This document shows, piece by piece, positions 3,941 to 9,210 of a DNA stretch of 64,000 bases; within the stretch, counting starts at the first letter, position 1; each line of letters begins with the position of its first letter. A model generated the notes under the pieces. That model was not told the DNA's origin. It did not search any database and was given only the letters and a program-made list of their open reading frames with translations. Source of the DNA: Pseudomonas sp. 31-12 (GTDB lineage Bacteria > Pseudomonadota > Gammaproteobacteria > Pseudomonadales > Pseudomonadaceae). Position numbers and translations under genes: made by a program. Location of the stretch: assembly GCF_003151075.1 (NCBI RefSeq), contig NZ_CP029482.1, forward strand, positions 3,162,001 through 3,226,000, written 5' to 3'.

Positions 3941-6538
3941 ATGGCACAACAAGTACATAACGATGGAACGTCAGGAAGTGTCGTCATCCGGTCGGGTCCG
4001 CCCGCTTCAAGCGGTGGTTCCGGTGGAGGTGGCGGCGGCGGAGGGGTTTCAGGCGGGTTCGGTAAAACCAGCAAGAAAAAGAAGAAGGCCCGAAAGCGGG
4101 CCATAGAGGCCGCTCGTCAGGCAAAGGAAAACGAGCGTGTGCAGGCAGGTATTCAAGCGCAAGCCTTGGCGGCTCAAGCTCAAGCTCAAGCTCAAGCAGC
4201 CGCGGCACGGGCTCAGGAGCAATCTCGCGTTCAGGCCTTGCACCAATTTCTCAACGGCCTGGCCCAGCGTCATGACGCTATCAGAACCGAGGTGGACCGA
4301 AGTTTTGCGGTTAAGGCCAGTCAACTCGCCCCCTCCCTTGAACATGAAATCTCCGGTGTTCGACGACCGCCGGACAGCGGTTCGAGCGAGCGTTGGCAGC
4401 TATACACCATCACCAAGGAAAAAAACGAAATTGACGGGCTGATCGCCCGAAAAACCGCAGAGCTCAATGCAAAGAACGCTGTTGCCAGGTCCTTTGATGG
4501 ACACGATCCATTCACCCGCACTTCGAACGATTACCTGACGCGACTGGGGGCGTTCGGGCAAGCGCTCAATGACGGTCACCAGATCTGGGAAAGCGCTTAC
4601 AACGCTGCCCACGAAGTGCGGCTTCTATCCGCGCAGATAAACGCGCTCACGGAAAAATCCAATGCGCTTGCCAGACATCATGCCGAGCAGACCGTTGTCT
4701 GGCGTGAGCGGGAAGCGGTGTGGGAGGCGCTCCGTCAGTTTTCCGAGCAGCGCGATGCTCGAGTCCGGTTCAAGCAGCAGGCTGATGAAGACTCTCGCGT
4801 CGAACGGGTCAGGCGGGTCAACACGCTGACTGTGCCCATGTCGACAACGGCCGCCGGCGGGATGTTTTTGACCCGTGAGGGTGTGCTCGTTGCTCAGGAC
4901 GTCGCGGCGGCAATCGAGGCTGCTTCCAGAGCTGCGGGCAGGCTCCTTGGCGATTTTGCTCGCATTGCAGCCAGAACAGGACCGGTATTCGTTACTGCCA
5001 TGGTGTACTCGCCGACGCTTGGCAATGGCGAGCTGACGCCCGAGCAACGCAGGCGCCTGTTCCATTCAGTCGGCGTGCCGGCGCAATCGCTGGGCCTCGC
5101 TGACAGCAGCGTCTTGCAATCGATCGCTGATGCGGGCGGATCGGTTGAAATGGCCTATCGGCTCAAAGCCGAAACGGTGCCGGAAGGCACCGCGATCATC
5201 GCCGTCAGTACCGGAGGCGGCATTGACGCACAGGTTCCGGTCGTCAATGCAGTGCTCGATCTTCTGACGGGGGCCTATCACGCCGAGATCCCCGGATATC
5301 CCGGCAGGCACTTGCAGTTCACTCCAGACGTCCCCTCTCTTCGGACAACGGCGAGTCAATCCGGATTGGCGGTGATCACTGCGCAGGTCCAGAGCATCCC
5401 GGAGGGTGTCGATCTACGCATACAGGATTGCATTGTGTGCGTGCCAGGCCTGCCACCGACTTACTTCTCTTTCGGTTTGCCGGCGATGGGATCTGGTGTC
5501 GTCACCGGCATCGGTCAACCCGCCGGCCTTGACTGGTGGAAAACAGCCAGCCAAGCGAGCGGTGCAGCTATCCCGGTACAGATTGGCGATCAGTTCCGTG
5601 GCCGGGAAGTCAATTCGTTCGGGGCCTTCGATGAAACGCTGTGGCGAACAGTTGGCGAGTACCCGGCCCTTGTCGCCGAATTCGATGAGGTGAACAAAAA
5701 ACGCCTCGAGCAAGGCTTTGCACCCTATGCCCCGAAAAACACCTGGGTCGGTGAGCGGCGTGAATTCGAGTTGCGTTATCAAACGCTCGCAGAGCTTGGC
5801 GAAAACCCGTTCAACCTCGACAAAATCAGCATTACTACTCCGCAAAGCAGCCAAGGACGGCTGGGCATAACACCGGCAATTTTGCCTTGGCCAATACGTC
5901 CTGTTGGCGTCGGTACCTGGATACCCCTCGTTCCACCGGGGATCGAACACCTCGGTCCTACAACTTCACCGGTCATACCGTCGATTCCTGCGGTTTATCC
6001 CGGTACTCCGGCCATCCCGGTCCTACCTCAAAACGAGACGTTTCCGGCTGTTGATCAAGGTCTGGTCGGTGGCAGTATTCCCGGGTTCCCGGCGGACATG
6101 GAGTTGCCTTCGTCGGATGTTCTGTTTCTTGACCGGCGGGATGATCCGGGTGTCGCAACCGGGGTTGGGCAGTCGGTGTCAGGAGTCTGGCTGGGTGCAG
6201 CCGCTCGTGGGGAGGGAGCGCCTATTCCTTCGCATATTGCGGATCAGTTAAGAGGACGGGAGTTTGCTAACTTTCATCGATTCAGGGAGGCTTTTTGGAA
6301 GGCAGTGGCCGCTGACTTAACTTTAAGTACTCAATTCCATGCCACAAATTTAAGGTTTCTGCGCAAGGGCACTGCGCCATTTCCTATCGGAAATGATCAG
6401 TACGGAGGTCGAGTGAAATACGAGCTCCATCATCAGATAGAGATTGCGCAAGGAGGGGCGGTGTACGACATGGATAACATTGTCGTAATGACGCCGAGAC
6501 GACACGTTCTCGTACATAAGGGTGGTCAGCACCTATGA
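3941..6538 (+). CDS. S-type pyocin-like HNH DNase bacteriocin with tandem nuclease domains
   Basis: 865 residues; ATG preceded by AAGGAG. The order is: a disordered N-terminus with a Gly run (residues 25-40); a basic, Ala/Gln-rich and coiled-coil region (about 45-300) likely to carry receptor binding; a Pyocin_S translocation-type region (about 345-512); a first colicin-type HNH region (about 525-645); a Pro-rich linker (about 645-735); and a second HNH domain (about 740-865). The second aligns without gaps to the colicin E9 active site: R824, E828, H830, H831, N846, H855 and H859 match R96, E100, H102, H103, N118, H127 and H131. In the first, R606 and E610 remain, but the histidines are R612, Y613, S637 and L641 and the Asn is K628. 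It should therefore be catalytically dead. The killing activity is DNA cleavage in the target cytoplasm. The stop overlaps the immunity gene start (ATGA). Confidence 0.9.
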   Translation: MAQQVHNDGTSGSVVIRSGPPASSGGSGGGGGGGGVSGGFGKTSKKKKKARKRAIEAARQAKENERVQAGIQAQALAAQAQAQAQAAAARAQEQSRVQALHQFLNGLAQRHDAIRTEVDRSFAVKASQLAPSLEHEISGVRRPPDSGSSERWQLYTITKEKNEIDGLIARKTAELNAKNAVARSFDGHDPFTRTSNDYLTRLGAFGQALNDGHQIWESAYNAAHEVRLLSAQINALTEKSNALARHHAEQTVVWREREAVWEALRQFSEQRDARVRFKQQADEDSRVERVRRVNTLTVPMSTTAAGGMFLTREGVLVAQDVAAAIEAASRAAGRLLGDFARIAARTGPVFVTAMVYSPTLGNGELTPEQRRRLFHSVGVPAQSLGLADSSVLQSIADAGGSVEMAYRLKAETVPEGTAIIAVSTGGGIDAQVPVVNAVLDLLTGAYHAEIPGYPGRHLQFTPDVPSLRTTASQSGLAVITAQVQSIPEGVDLRIQDCIVCVPGLPPTYFSFGLPAMGSGVVTGIGQPAGLDWWKTASQASGAAIPVQIGDQFRGREVNSFGAFDETLWRTVGEYPALVAEFDEVNKKRLEQGFAPYAPKNTWVGERREFELRYQTLAELGENPFNLDKISITTPQSSQGRLGITPAILPWPIRPVGVGTWIPLVPPGIEHLGPTTSPVIPSIPAVYPGTPAIPVLPQNETFPAVDQGLVGGSIPGFPADMELPSSDVLFLDRRDDPGVATGVGQSVSGVWLGAAARGEGAPIPSHIADQLRGREFANFHRFREAFWKAVAADLTLSTQFHATNLRFLRKGTAPFPIGNDQYGGRVKYELHHQIEIAQGGAVYDMDNIVVMTPRRHVLVHKGGQHL
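4172..4195 (+). repeat. tandem GCTCAA hexamer, four copies
   Basis: Four consecutive GCTCAA units encode an Ala-Gln repeat in the bacteriocin N-terminal helical region. The run is in frame (six bases), so copy-number slippage would change the length of the Ala/Gln stretch by two residues at a time without a frameshift. Confidence 0.85.
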
Positions 6539-6810
6539 AAAACTATTCACGTATCGAAGATTACACAGAGTCTGAGTTTCTGGAATTTCTTAGAGAACTA
6601 TTTGATGGTGGAGAGGATTTGACGGCTGATGAGTTTGATCAATACATGATCGAGCGCATCAAGCATTTCGAGACGATCACAGAACACCCAGACCGCTCAG
6701 ACGTCATTTTCTACCCCAAGGAAGGCCAGGAAGACAGTCCCGAAGGCATCCTGAAAGCAGTCAAGGAATGGCGCGCACTCAATAACAAACCCGGCTTCAA
6801 GCCGGAGTAA
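6535..6810 (+). CDS. colicin DNase-type immunity protein (Im2/Im9 family)
   Basis: 91 residues. The N-terminus (IEDYTESEFLEFLRELFDGG) and the helix III region (SDVIFYPKEGQEDSPEGI) match Im9 in order and spacing, with the C-terminal EWRALNNKPGF. In Im9 the contact pair is Tyr54-Tyr55; here it is Phe-Tyr (IFYP). Such changes, and those in helix II, set specificity. The protein should bind the C-terminal HNH domain of the bacteriocin at its exosite and protect the producer. The start overlaps the bacteriocin stop by four bases, the usual arrangement for coupled expression. Confidence 0.93.
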   Translation: MKNYSRIEDYTESEFLEFLRELFDGGEDLTADEFDQYMIERIKHFETITEHPDRSDVIFYPKEGQEDSPEGILKAVKEWRALNNKPGFKPE

Positions 6811-6909: not shown

Positions 6910-8469
6910 ATGGAACTCAAAGCAACACTCAAGGATTACACCGAGCCGGAATTCCAGGCGTTGGTGAACAGAATATGGGCCGTCGATTTGCCTAAAGTGG
7001 ACCATGACCGACTCATCAACCACTTCGACCGGATCGTCGGCCACCCCAAAGGCGCAGATCTGTTGTTCTACCCTGCAGAGGACGATTACAACGGTCACAC
7101 CACGGGCTCGGTTGTGTACTACGTCAAAGACTGGCACCACAAGAAAGGGCAGCCTGCATTCAAGGGTGAGGGCATCCCCATGCCGAGCTCCAATGCCAAT
7201 TGGCCGTCCACTCCGATGACGTTTGCCCAAGTGACGCAACTGCGCATCGCTCAAAGTCTGGCAGCGGCACAAAAAGTCGTCATAGACGTGGCAACTTCCC
7301 AGAATGATGTTGAGCCAGCGTTAAGCCTTTTAGAGCGCCGTATCAAGCATCTGCGCAGCCAACAGAACGCTGAAGTGGACATCCGTGGGCGTGAGGCGGA
7401 CATCCGCAGCCTCGAAATCGCTGAATTTGATACACGTCTGGTGGTCAGGCGCTACGAGTTCTGGGAAATGAGGCTCAAGTTCAAAAGGGACGCTGCCCAA
7501 CGCGATTTGACTTATGGCCGCGCCGAGCAAGCACAGTGGCAAAACATCGCCCAGTTGATCACTGCCACTGAGTCTCGGTATCTGGCGACGTTGAGCGTCG
7601 TCAGGCAGCGCCTGAATCACCTGCAAATCGAGGCTGAAACGTTACTGATCAATGCGCAAACCCAACTGGTACGCCAACGCTATCAGGGAGGAGTGGGTCC
7701 CGTTCAGACCCCGGGCCTTTTGTTGGCGTCACTGGGCCACGTCAATTCGCGGCCCGGCGTCTGGATCGATGGGGCGCTTTCACAACCAATGGAAATTTAC
7801 CGGATCGCTCTGCAAAAATCGGTGCGTTCTGCGGTGGCAGAATTTACCTGGCAGATCACCTCCCGTACCGAAGCCCATCAGGGTCAATACGCGGCGGTTC
7901 TACGAATGGAATTTTCAAGTCGCGCCGAGGTTGGCAGGTATGCGGTGTGTGTGCCTTTGCACGAGTTCCAGCCCATCGAGGGGCATGATTGGCACGACCT
8001 TGCAGCAAACGCGGCAGACGTGGACATTGCTTTCAGGATGATCAGCGGTACATACGATGTTCCCGCAGGGACGCTGTCTCAAGGCGTGAGATTGATAAGC
8101 ACGCTGTTACAGGTGGCCATAACGCCAACGAATGGCAACACCTTGTCGTCCAAAGTGAAGGTGCGCCCCGCGGTCTGGAAGGACACCATGCAAGCTTACT
8201 GTTTCACCGCCGATGGACCGGCCCCGGTCACTGTCAGCTGGCGCGCACCTGCGGCGCTTGAAACCACACCGGACCAGGGGTCGACCACCGAGTATCGCCT
8301 GGGGTTTTTGCAATCTCCGCCTGTTCCGTTATTGGAGCCATTTGATGGCACGAGCGAGATCAAATTCGATGACTACATCGTTGTCTTCCCGGCAGGCTCC
8401 GGGGTGGACCCGCTTTACGTCATGTTCCGGGACAGAAGAGAGTTTCCGACCCCCGAAACCATAAATTGA
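6910..8469 (+). CDS. Im9-type immunity domain fused to a pyocin body lacking a nuclease
   Basis: 519 residues. I start at the ATG at 6910, preceded by AAGGA, because MELKATLKDYTEPEFQALV matches the exact start of Im9-type proteins. An in-frame ATG at 6850 lies inside a hairpin. Residues 1-88 form a complete Im-type domain (ADLLFYPAEDDYNG, then VKDWHHKKGQPAFK). Residues about 95-260 are helical and strongly charged, as in a coiled coil. Residues about 290-505 match the Pyocin_S domain, ending DDYIVVFPAGSGVDPLYVMF followed by RDRRE. In ordinary pyocins a nuclease follows directly after this segment; here the protein stops 9 residues later. It is thus a pyocin-shaped protein whose toxin is missing and whose N-terminus is an immunity protein. 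Its function is unknown: a decoy, a deliverable immunity factor, or a decayed bacteriocin are all possible. Confidence 0.8.
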   Translation: MELKATLKDYTEPEFQALVNRIWAVDLPKVDHDRLINHFDRIVGHPKGADLLFYPAEDDYNGHTTGSVVYYVKDWHHKKGQPAFKGEGIPMPSSNANWPSTPMTFAQVTQLRIAQSLAAAQKVVIDVATSQNDVEPALSLLERRIKHLRSQQNAEVDIRGREADIRSLEIAEFDTRLVVRRYEFWEMRLKFKRDAAQRDLTYGRAEQAQWQNIAQLITATESRYLATLSVVRQRLNHLQIEAETLLINAQTQLVRQRYQGGVGPVQTPGLLLASLGHVNSRPGVWIDGALSQPMEIYRIALQKSVRSAVAEFTWQITSRTEAHQGQYAAVLRMEFSSRAEVGRYAVCVPLHEFQPIEGHDWHDLAANAADVDIAFRMISGTYDVPAGTLSQGVRLISTLLQVAITPTNGNTLSSKVKVRPAVWKDTMQAYCFTADGPAPVTVSWRAPAALETTPDQGSTTEYRLGFLQSPPVPLLEPFDGTSEIKFDDYIVVFPAGSGVDPLYVMFRDRREFPTPETIN

Positions 8470-8963
8470 TGTGCCTGCCACGCTTGCCACTTCACTTCCT
8501 GCCAAACAATGGAATGCAAATGCCTGTGTTGCAAATTACTACGCTCATCCCCGGCCGGACACCGGCGCAAGTCCTCGATTACTGCCTGGAAGGCGTCAAC
8601 TTTCCGAAGATCTTCCCGGGGCGGGTGACGCTATTAAGCAATATCGACTTAAGCAATCTTCGAATCGAAGCCGGGCGCCAGTTCCGTTTTCGACACTGGA
8701 TGTTCAATTTCATACCTGCCGATTGGACCGTGGTGATTCGCGAGGTTGGCGAGCATCATTTCATCGATGAAATGCTCAAGGGACCAATGGCTGCCTTTCG
8801 TCATGAACACCGGGTGGAGACGGGAGAGGGCGGTACGCTGTACACCGATCATGTGACGTATTCGGCTTTCGGTGGCGCGTTGACAGAGGCGCTACTGGTA
8901 AATGCGTATATGCGCCGGATCTTCGAGGCGCGACACCGCAATATGTTGCGGTTGCTGGCCTGA
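8469..8963 (+). CDS. SRPBCC family protein
   Basis: A START/polyketide-cyclase-like small protein. The ATG at 8469 overlaps the stop of the fusion gene (TGATG), which would allow coupled translation. The recognisable domain begins at the ATG at 8520 ([20 protein letters not shown]), so the true product is 147-164 residues. The hydrophobic-pocket fold is suggested by the alternating pattern through [20 protein letters not shown] and the C-terminal helix ([20 protein letters not shown]). Its ligand is unknown. No functional link to the bacteriocin is evident beyond position. Confidence 0.75.
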
Positions 8964-8980
8964 CCCCGACCCTGTGGACC

Positions 8981-9083
8981 TTGTGGCGAGGGGGCTTGCC
9001 CCCGTTGGGTCGCGAAGCGGCCCCATAGCCGAAGTTCAGGGGACTGCTGCGCAGTCCAACGGGGGCAAGCCCCCTCGCCACAA
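8981..9083. repeat. REPIN-like inverted repeat (class GTGGCGAGGG)
   Basis: A 28-bp perfect inverted repeat: the left arm starts TTGTGGCGAGGGGGCTTGCC at 8981 and its exact reverse complement ends at 9083, enclosing about 47 bases. It lies between the SRPBCC gene and tpx. Such elements are mobilised by RAYT transposases encoded elsewhere and can end or stabilise transcripts. Confidence 0.85.
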
Positions 9084-9210
9084 AGGCTCGCTCCCATCAG
9101 GGATTTGGGTTGTATACAAGTTTTGTACAGGGGATAGGTCGTCGGACCATTTCGTGGTTAACTTCGGCCTCTTCAAAATTCTCCACAACAACGTCAGAAG
9201 GACTCCGTTC

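Follow-up and report, generated by a model that had tools for sequence, protein, structure and literature searches.

Why does a bacteriocin locus of Pseudomonas sp. 31-12 encode an immunity domain joined to the body of a pyocin that has no toxin? The gene in question, here called the fusion, lies at 6910..8469 on the forward strand of the window, the 64,000-nucleotide stretch of contig NZ_CP029482.1 (assembly GCF_003151075.1, positions 3,162,001 to 3,226,000) that was analysed. Upstream of it, on the same strand, lies a killer bacteriocin with an extra DNase domain (D1) that has lost its catalytic residues. From our comparison of these genes, a former toxin and its antidote may now serve as a clip that holds a two-part weapon together.

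The open reading frame (ORF) of the fusion encodes 519 amino acids, unlike a small free-standing immunity protein, and is made up from an Im9-type immunity (Im) domain, a helical stretch and a Pyocin_S/IMTD domain, after which the protein stops. In Pfam, residues 4-85 match PF01320 (E 1.3e-17, 64 bits against a cut-off of 21.2) and residues 390-505 match PF06958 (E 1.5e-17, 64.8 bits against a cut-off of 22.5), and the scan found no domain C-terminal to PF06958. The AlphaFold2 model (mean pLDDT 84.6) shows four helices between residues 12 and 78, further and longer ones in residues 105-259 and mostly strands in residues 269-506. Foldseek matched this model to immunity-protein chains (TM-score normalised to the target 0.75-0.87, E 3e-5 to 8e-4) and to 2axc, the translocation domain of colicin E7 (E 6e-6, TM-score to the target 0.51). 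With a PF01320 score above the cut-off and a four-helix fold, the first domain resembles a colicin or pyocin immunity protein, and it retains the residues of helix III (D51 in 52/52 distinct loci, F54, as [FY]54, in 51/52 and Y55 in 47/52). More specifically, Pfam, conservation and the model place the Im domain, with its conserved helix II, at residues 1-90 (6910..7179), and the Pyocin_S/IMTD-type domain, from Pfam, AlphaFold2 and Foldseek, at residues 269-507 (7714..8430). The linker and helical region between them (residues 91-268, 7180..7713) is much shorter in a variant of 332-339 amino acids, in which Im and IMTD are separated by little else (five clusters, the query among them). The start at 6910 (MELK...) is common to most relatives and is preceded by an AAGGA that ends 10 bases 5' of it, as judged by eye; the ORF caller instead gives 6850.

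This layout agrees with the original prediction, which had been made from the letters alone and described an Im9-type domain, a helical region and a Pyocin_S domain without a toxin. The prediction also had the protein stop nine residues after RDRRE; it does end just past this motif (...RDRRE-FPTPETIN), eight residues after RDRRE and nine after RDRR.

The protein search scored 7997 candidates sharing most words and yielded 141 relatives at E 1e-3. Among the best 120 of these 141, 105 combine the two Pfam domains without a DNase (480-536 amino acids), 11 add a PF21431 DNase (612-633 amino acids) and 4 are without one of the two domains. All 11 DNase-bearing relatives stop before the last histidine motif, and in the six truncated DNase tails aligned from the loci, H102, H127 and H131 (colicin E9 numbering) are kept in 0/6; the fusion itself has no C-terminal cytotoxic domain, and the minority of relatives that go further have a truncated one. 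Because the toxinless layout is the common form among relatives, a local truncation of a nuclease pyocin, named in the original prediction as what would refute it, was rejected. The truncated-DNase forms branch in several places on the tree (at least 4 changes), as expected if a fused Im-DNase pyocin had lost its nuclease, which lends some support to the prediction's further suggestion of an intermediate in bacteriocin evolution. We also considered the truncated tail as the partner of its own Im domain. This was rejected, as the Im-binding segment of the tail has a deletion in 4/6 and is not conserved, so that the tail looks like a leftover.

The killer bacteriocin (3941..6538, 865 amino acids) consists of a glycine-rich N-terminus, a helical region, an IMTD, D1, a linker and a C-terminal DNase (D2), and is followed by a free immunity protein of 91 amino acids (6535..6810), taken as the partner of D2. 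The fusion thus follows a bacteriocin and its immunity gene, as had been noted from the sequence, and 36 of the 41 fusions in our genome census come with D1. D1 spans killer residues 516-650 (5486..5890) and keeps an Im-binding segment, the proposed dock of the fusion; a proline-rich linker that is recognisable across loci (5891..6115) leads to D2 (6116..6535), which is swapped between loci. D1 aligns to colicin E9 residues 9-125, has R-Y in place of E9 His102-His103 and has lost the C-terminal histidines. Across 51 D1 domains, R5, R54, H102, H127 and H131 are each kept in 0/51 and H103 in 12/51, while all six residues are kept in 23/23 D2 domains. Going by these residues, D1 falls outside the HNH DNases and is enzymatically dead.

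A glycine-rich N-terminus was found in 17/17 killers inspected. In the killer it bears a VVI motif similar to MVITH, the TonB box given for pyocin S2, a likeness that is one of resemblance only. An SOS/LexA box (CTGN10CAG) was found 5' of the killer in 7/52 loci, with none in the window. Assignment of the killer as a type VI secretion system effector was rejected, as NF047924 (NCBIfam) matches its DNase at 228 bits against a cut-off of 900 and no Pfam secretion-system domain was found. Homology of the helical regions of killer and fusion is not shown by their profile alignment, which has a probability of 99.3 but covers mainly the IMTD.

A search of the whole genome with D1 and its linker (E 1e-5) gave three matches. 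Two are D1 itself and D2 of the killer, and the third, at 1.253 Mb, belongs to an unrelated pyocin. In line with the original prediction, the DNA 3' of the fusion yielded no nuclease remnant. The pyocin at 1.253 Mb (G000:C1:1253248-1253902; loci L045 and L048) is an ordinary DNase pyocin with a free Im and no fusion, and serves as a useful internal control.

To what extent do fusion and D1 occur together? The domain table was built from 43 loci taken from genome contigs and 40 further genome regions, and holds 69 loci with a killer ORF (IMTD and D1) and 72 with a fusion ORF. Both lie on the same strand in 67 loci, 52 of which are distinct. The five loci with a fusion and no IMTD+D1 killer ORF carry a killer fragment (L024, L072) or killers with deletions or frameshifts (L050, L051, L052), and two others (L005, L057) hold killer parts and no complete fusion, with both sides broken. 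Among the 52 distinct loci, the killers of L004, L012, L026 and L053 are broken or frameshifted, and L011 has a short killer as well as a short fusion. The killer of L050 (L050:5217-6077) is without IMTD, D1 and linker; the adjoining fusion is intact, with its truncated DNase in a separate ORF.

The census used one genome per species, with thresholds that may miss short or divergent forms. The fusion was found in 41/398 Pseudomonas genomes (E 1e-25) and in 1/360 Gammaproteobacteria (E 1e-20), the latter being the genome of the window itself, and D1 with its linker in 39/398 Pseudomonas genomes. Both occur in 36 genomes, the fusion only in 5, D1 only in 3 and neither in 354 (Fisher p 3e-42). 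Each of these 36 has its two matches on the same contig and strand, less than 3 kb apart. In the fusion-only genomes (G127 and G214, which hold fragments, and G154, G244 and G310), killer remnants adjoin the fusion in every case. The D1-only matches are remnants (G106, G366) or an ordinary DNase pyocin (G388). Col-Pyo_DNase occurs in 152/398 genomes, 114 of them without a D1 match; the fusion is present in 4 of these 114, all of which are remnant cases.

The toxin behind D1 varies. The C-terminal toxin of 52 killers is an HNH DNase in 23 and, in 26, a domain recognised by pattern from its DHIPS-type motif; the other 3 killers are truncated. Pfam gave the DHIPS-type toxin no match when 8 killers were scanned whole, and no credible match when 4 of the domains were scanned separately; going by published description, it is probably the S3-like DNase of PsdH2 (PMC5358913). 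The gene 3' of this toxin matches DUF6392 in 3/3 cases tested, at 39.6, 25.5 and 19.9 bits against a cut-off of 25.9, so that one stands above it. On the fusion tree (49 rows), the toxin type changes at least 10 times while D1 and fusion are retained. In L006 and L019, for example, the fusions are 96% identical and the D1 domains 95%, and the toxins are different. Toxin-immunity cassettes are thus swapped behind a constant backbone, as in polymorphic toxin systems, and both the changes and orphan cassettes bear witness to this. An antidote role of the fusion Im against the active DNase was rejected, as the fusion is retained with non-HNH toxins and its Im differs from the free Im.

Orphan toxin-immunity cassettes lie between killer and fusion at L085:6674-7204 and L018:6055-6914, and the orphan DNase piece of L085 retains part of the killer linker. 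At L006:4898-6777, also between killer and fusion, three similar immunity-like genes stand in a row, the first of which matches DUF6392, together with a toxin fragment.

If the fusion Im is not the antidote of the swapped toxin, what does it bind? The textbook example of ultra-tight and diversifying recognition between proteins is that of colicin DNases and their Im partners. We compared the interfaces in 23 loci with both DNases, taking the Im-binding segment to be E9 residues 72-98 and helix II to be Im9 residues 30-44, borders that we assume from published work on such complexes. In D1, the Im-binding segment has a mean pairwise identity of 0.881 against 0.679 for the rest of the domain (column permutation P 0.0001), and that of D2 has 0.533 against 0.700 (P 0.009). 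The immunity side repeats this pattern: in the fusion Im, helix II has 0.801 and the rest of the domain 0.617 (P 0.012), and in the free Im the two values are 0.486 and 0.712 (P 0.004). Helix II of the fusion Im is therefore conserved, and does not diverge with an active nuclease as it does in immunity proteins. Distance matrices correlate between fusion Im and D1 (r 0.68) and between D2 and free Im (0.67), with lower values for fusion Im and D2 (0.33) and for free Im and D1 (0.19). They group the fusion Im, the fusion body, D1 and the killer IMTD (r 0.51-0.84) apart from D2 and free Im (0.67), and the helical region of the killer tracks D1 (r 0.62) more than the fusion (0.27-0.49). Median dN/dS (the ratio of nonsynonymous to synonymous rates) is 0.12 for D1 and 0.14, 0.23 and 0.22 for the Im, helical and IMTD parts of the fusion, as medians over 45-49 overlapping pairs, some with dS > 1. 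This mirror-image segment conservation, the distance grouping and dN/dS are the main grounds for proposing that the fusion Im grips D1.

On balance, we favour, with considerable reservation, the explanation that killer and fusion make up an S-type bacteriocin of two chains, with the fusion as second subunit, docked through its Im domain on the dead D1. An ancestral pyocin DNase would have given up its catalytic residues after a new toxin had come to stand behind it, and kept the surface gripped by its immunity protein. The Im domain, now fused to a helical-IMTD body, would still grip D1, turning a toxin-immunity lock into a structural joint behind which a separate C-terminal toxin and its own free Im could be exchanged. 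The complex of killer and fusion would then be released as one particle, in which the extra IMTD may help the killer cross the envelope or mature. The fusion could bring an additional IMTD to the inner membrane or act as a cap while the bacteriocin is stored, and we make no choice between the two. As the fusion has no glycine-rich VVI N-terminus, it would travel with the killer. Nuclease colicins are reported to shed their Im at the cell surface as they enter (PMC5536347); by the same token, the fusion might just as well remain outside. The broader statement, that a retired toxin-immunity pair forms a permanent lock between two chains with toxin and antidote freely exchangeable, in about one in ten of the Pseudomonas species sampled (41/398), has in our judgement only slightly better than even chances.

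Several points weigh against this explanation. The column permutations take columns as independent, and the correlation of fusion Im and D2 itself exceeds chance expectation (r 0.33, Mantel p 0.0006). Once the fusion IMTD is given, the partial correlation of fusion Im and D1 is only 0.38. Furthermore, correlations are no proof of contact, because the flanks of a swapped cassette share history by linkage alone. Position R54, which we take to face Im9 in the E9 complex, is acidic in 43/51 D1 domains, which would make the interface unlike that of the textbooks, and Y55 is lost in 5/52 fusion Im domains. The structure model of the killer is poor (pLDDT 56.4) and silent on assembly. Finally, intact fusions stand beside broken or frameshifted killers in six census genomes (G111, G113, judged from open-frame lengths, G154, G244, G310 and G367) and, outside the census, in L012, a pattern that a protective role could also give.

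One such role would be that of a pan-immunity decoy, in which the fusion traps incoming relatives through D1, whatever toxin they bear. The single conserved Im beside differing toxins fits this idea, as do the intact fusions beside broken or frameshifted killers. Killers would, however, profit from losing D1, which is under purifying selection, and 0/41 census fusion matches lie away from a killer or killer remnant, unlike a free-standing antidote. We therefore regard the decoy as unlikely, though as the strongest of the alternatives. More doubtful still is that both nuclease domains are toxic and the fusion is immunity to the first, as is in print for PsdH1/PsdH2. That report describes hybrids in which two nuclease modules are followed by two putative immunity modules (PMC5358913), and the retained helix III residues of the fusion Im would suit an antidote. 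H102, H127 and H131 are nevertheless absent from 51/51 D1 domains, Sharp et al. report the additional DNase to be without a functional HNH motif (PMC5536347), and an antidote has no need of a 430-residue body or a conserved helix II. It is very improbable that the fusion is what remains of a fused pyocin in decay and is carried along by the killer; some members have truncated DNase tails, yet the fusion is intact in dozens of loci, is retained through toxin changes and has low median dN/dS (0.14-0.23) across all three parts. The social factor of the original prediction, an import-competent carrier taking immunity to sister cells, has an IMTD-type domain in its favour and is the least credible of all, as the fusion begins with a folded Im domain in place of the disordered N-terminus and TonB-type epitope of S-type pyocins, shows no recognised entry signal such as the glycine-rich N-terminus of the killers, and has an Im that follows a dead domain.

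Returning to the two-chain explanation, how does it relate to known systems? PsdH1 and PsdH2 are hybrids of an S1-like DNase and a second S1-like or S3-like DNase, and by their published description apparently have the same killer layout (PMC5358913). They were read as dual toxins, whereas here the first DNase is dead and a fusion of about 500 amino acids with Im and IMTD goes with it; judged by the lost D1 residues, the two nuclease domains are not both active. The second domain is an HNH DNase in 23/52 and of DHIPS type in 26/52, the latter S3-like going by the published description. The fusion Im has its fold, Pfam family and helix III motif in common with Im2, Im7, Im9 and the pyocin S2 Im (PF01320), and differs from them in standing N-terminal to a pyocin body, in its conserved helix II and in a proposed partner that is non-catalytic. 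Polymorphic toxin systems such as CDI and Rhs have a fixed backbone, exchangeable C-terminal toxin-immunity cassettes and orphan cassettes. The present loci resemble them in the constant backbone, the swapped cassettes and the orphans of L085 and L018, but the proteins are of bacteriocin type and the constant last gene bears a retired immunity domain.

The IMTD/Pyocin_S domain of the fusion is that described in PMC9040868, where the legend of Fig. 1D names Colicin_Pyocin among the domains co-occurring with IMTD; the accessible part makes no mention of the fusion as such, of a dead partner or of a function. P. fluorescens bacteriocins with PF06958 were sorted into groups N1 and N2 by comparative genomics (PMC3390384), and the fusion is not mentioned in the part of that paper seen. 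Our literature searches, which reached some sources in part, found no pairing of the fusion with a dead DNase, and the PsdH1/PsdH2 review by Ghequire and De Mot may describe the fusion. Two-DNase killers are thus already in print, and the new part is that the dead domain and the fused Im are linked as one constant pair.

One locus therefore holds two kinds of pair, one diversifying with its toxin and one conserved alongside a dead enzyme. Should binding be confirmed, this would show a toxin-antidote interaction turning into an assembly interface, explain why a dead nuclease is kept in 'dual-toxin' pseudomonad bacteriocins, and provide a natural constant dock ahead of exchangeable toxins.

Directly 3' of the fusion, the ORF 8466-8963 encodes a small protein (8520-8960) that resembles polyketide_cyc2 only below the Pfam cut-off. 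Between this ORF and a gene starting at about 9212, a GC-rich inverted repeat, presumably REP-like, was seen by eye at window positions 8963-9090.
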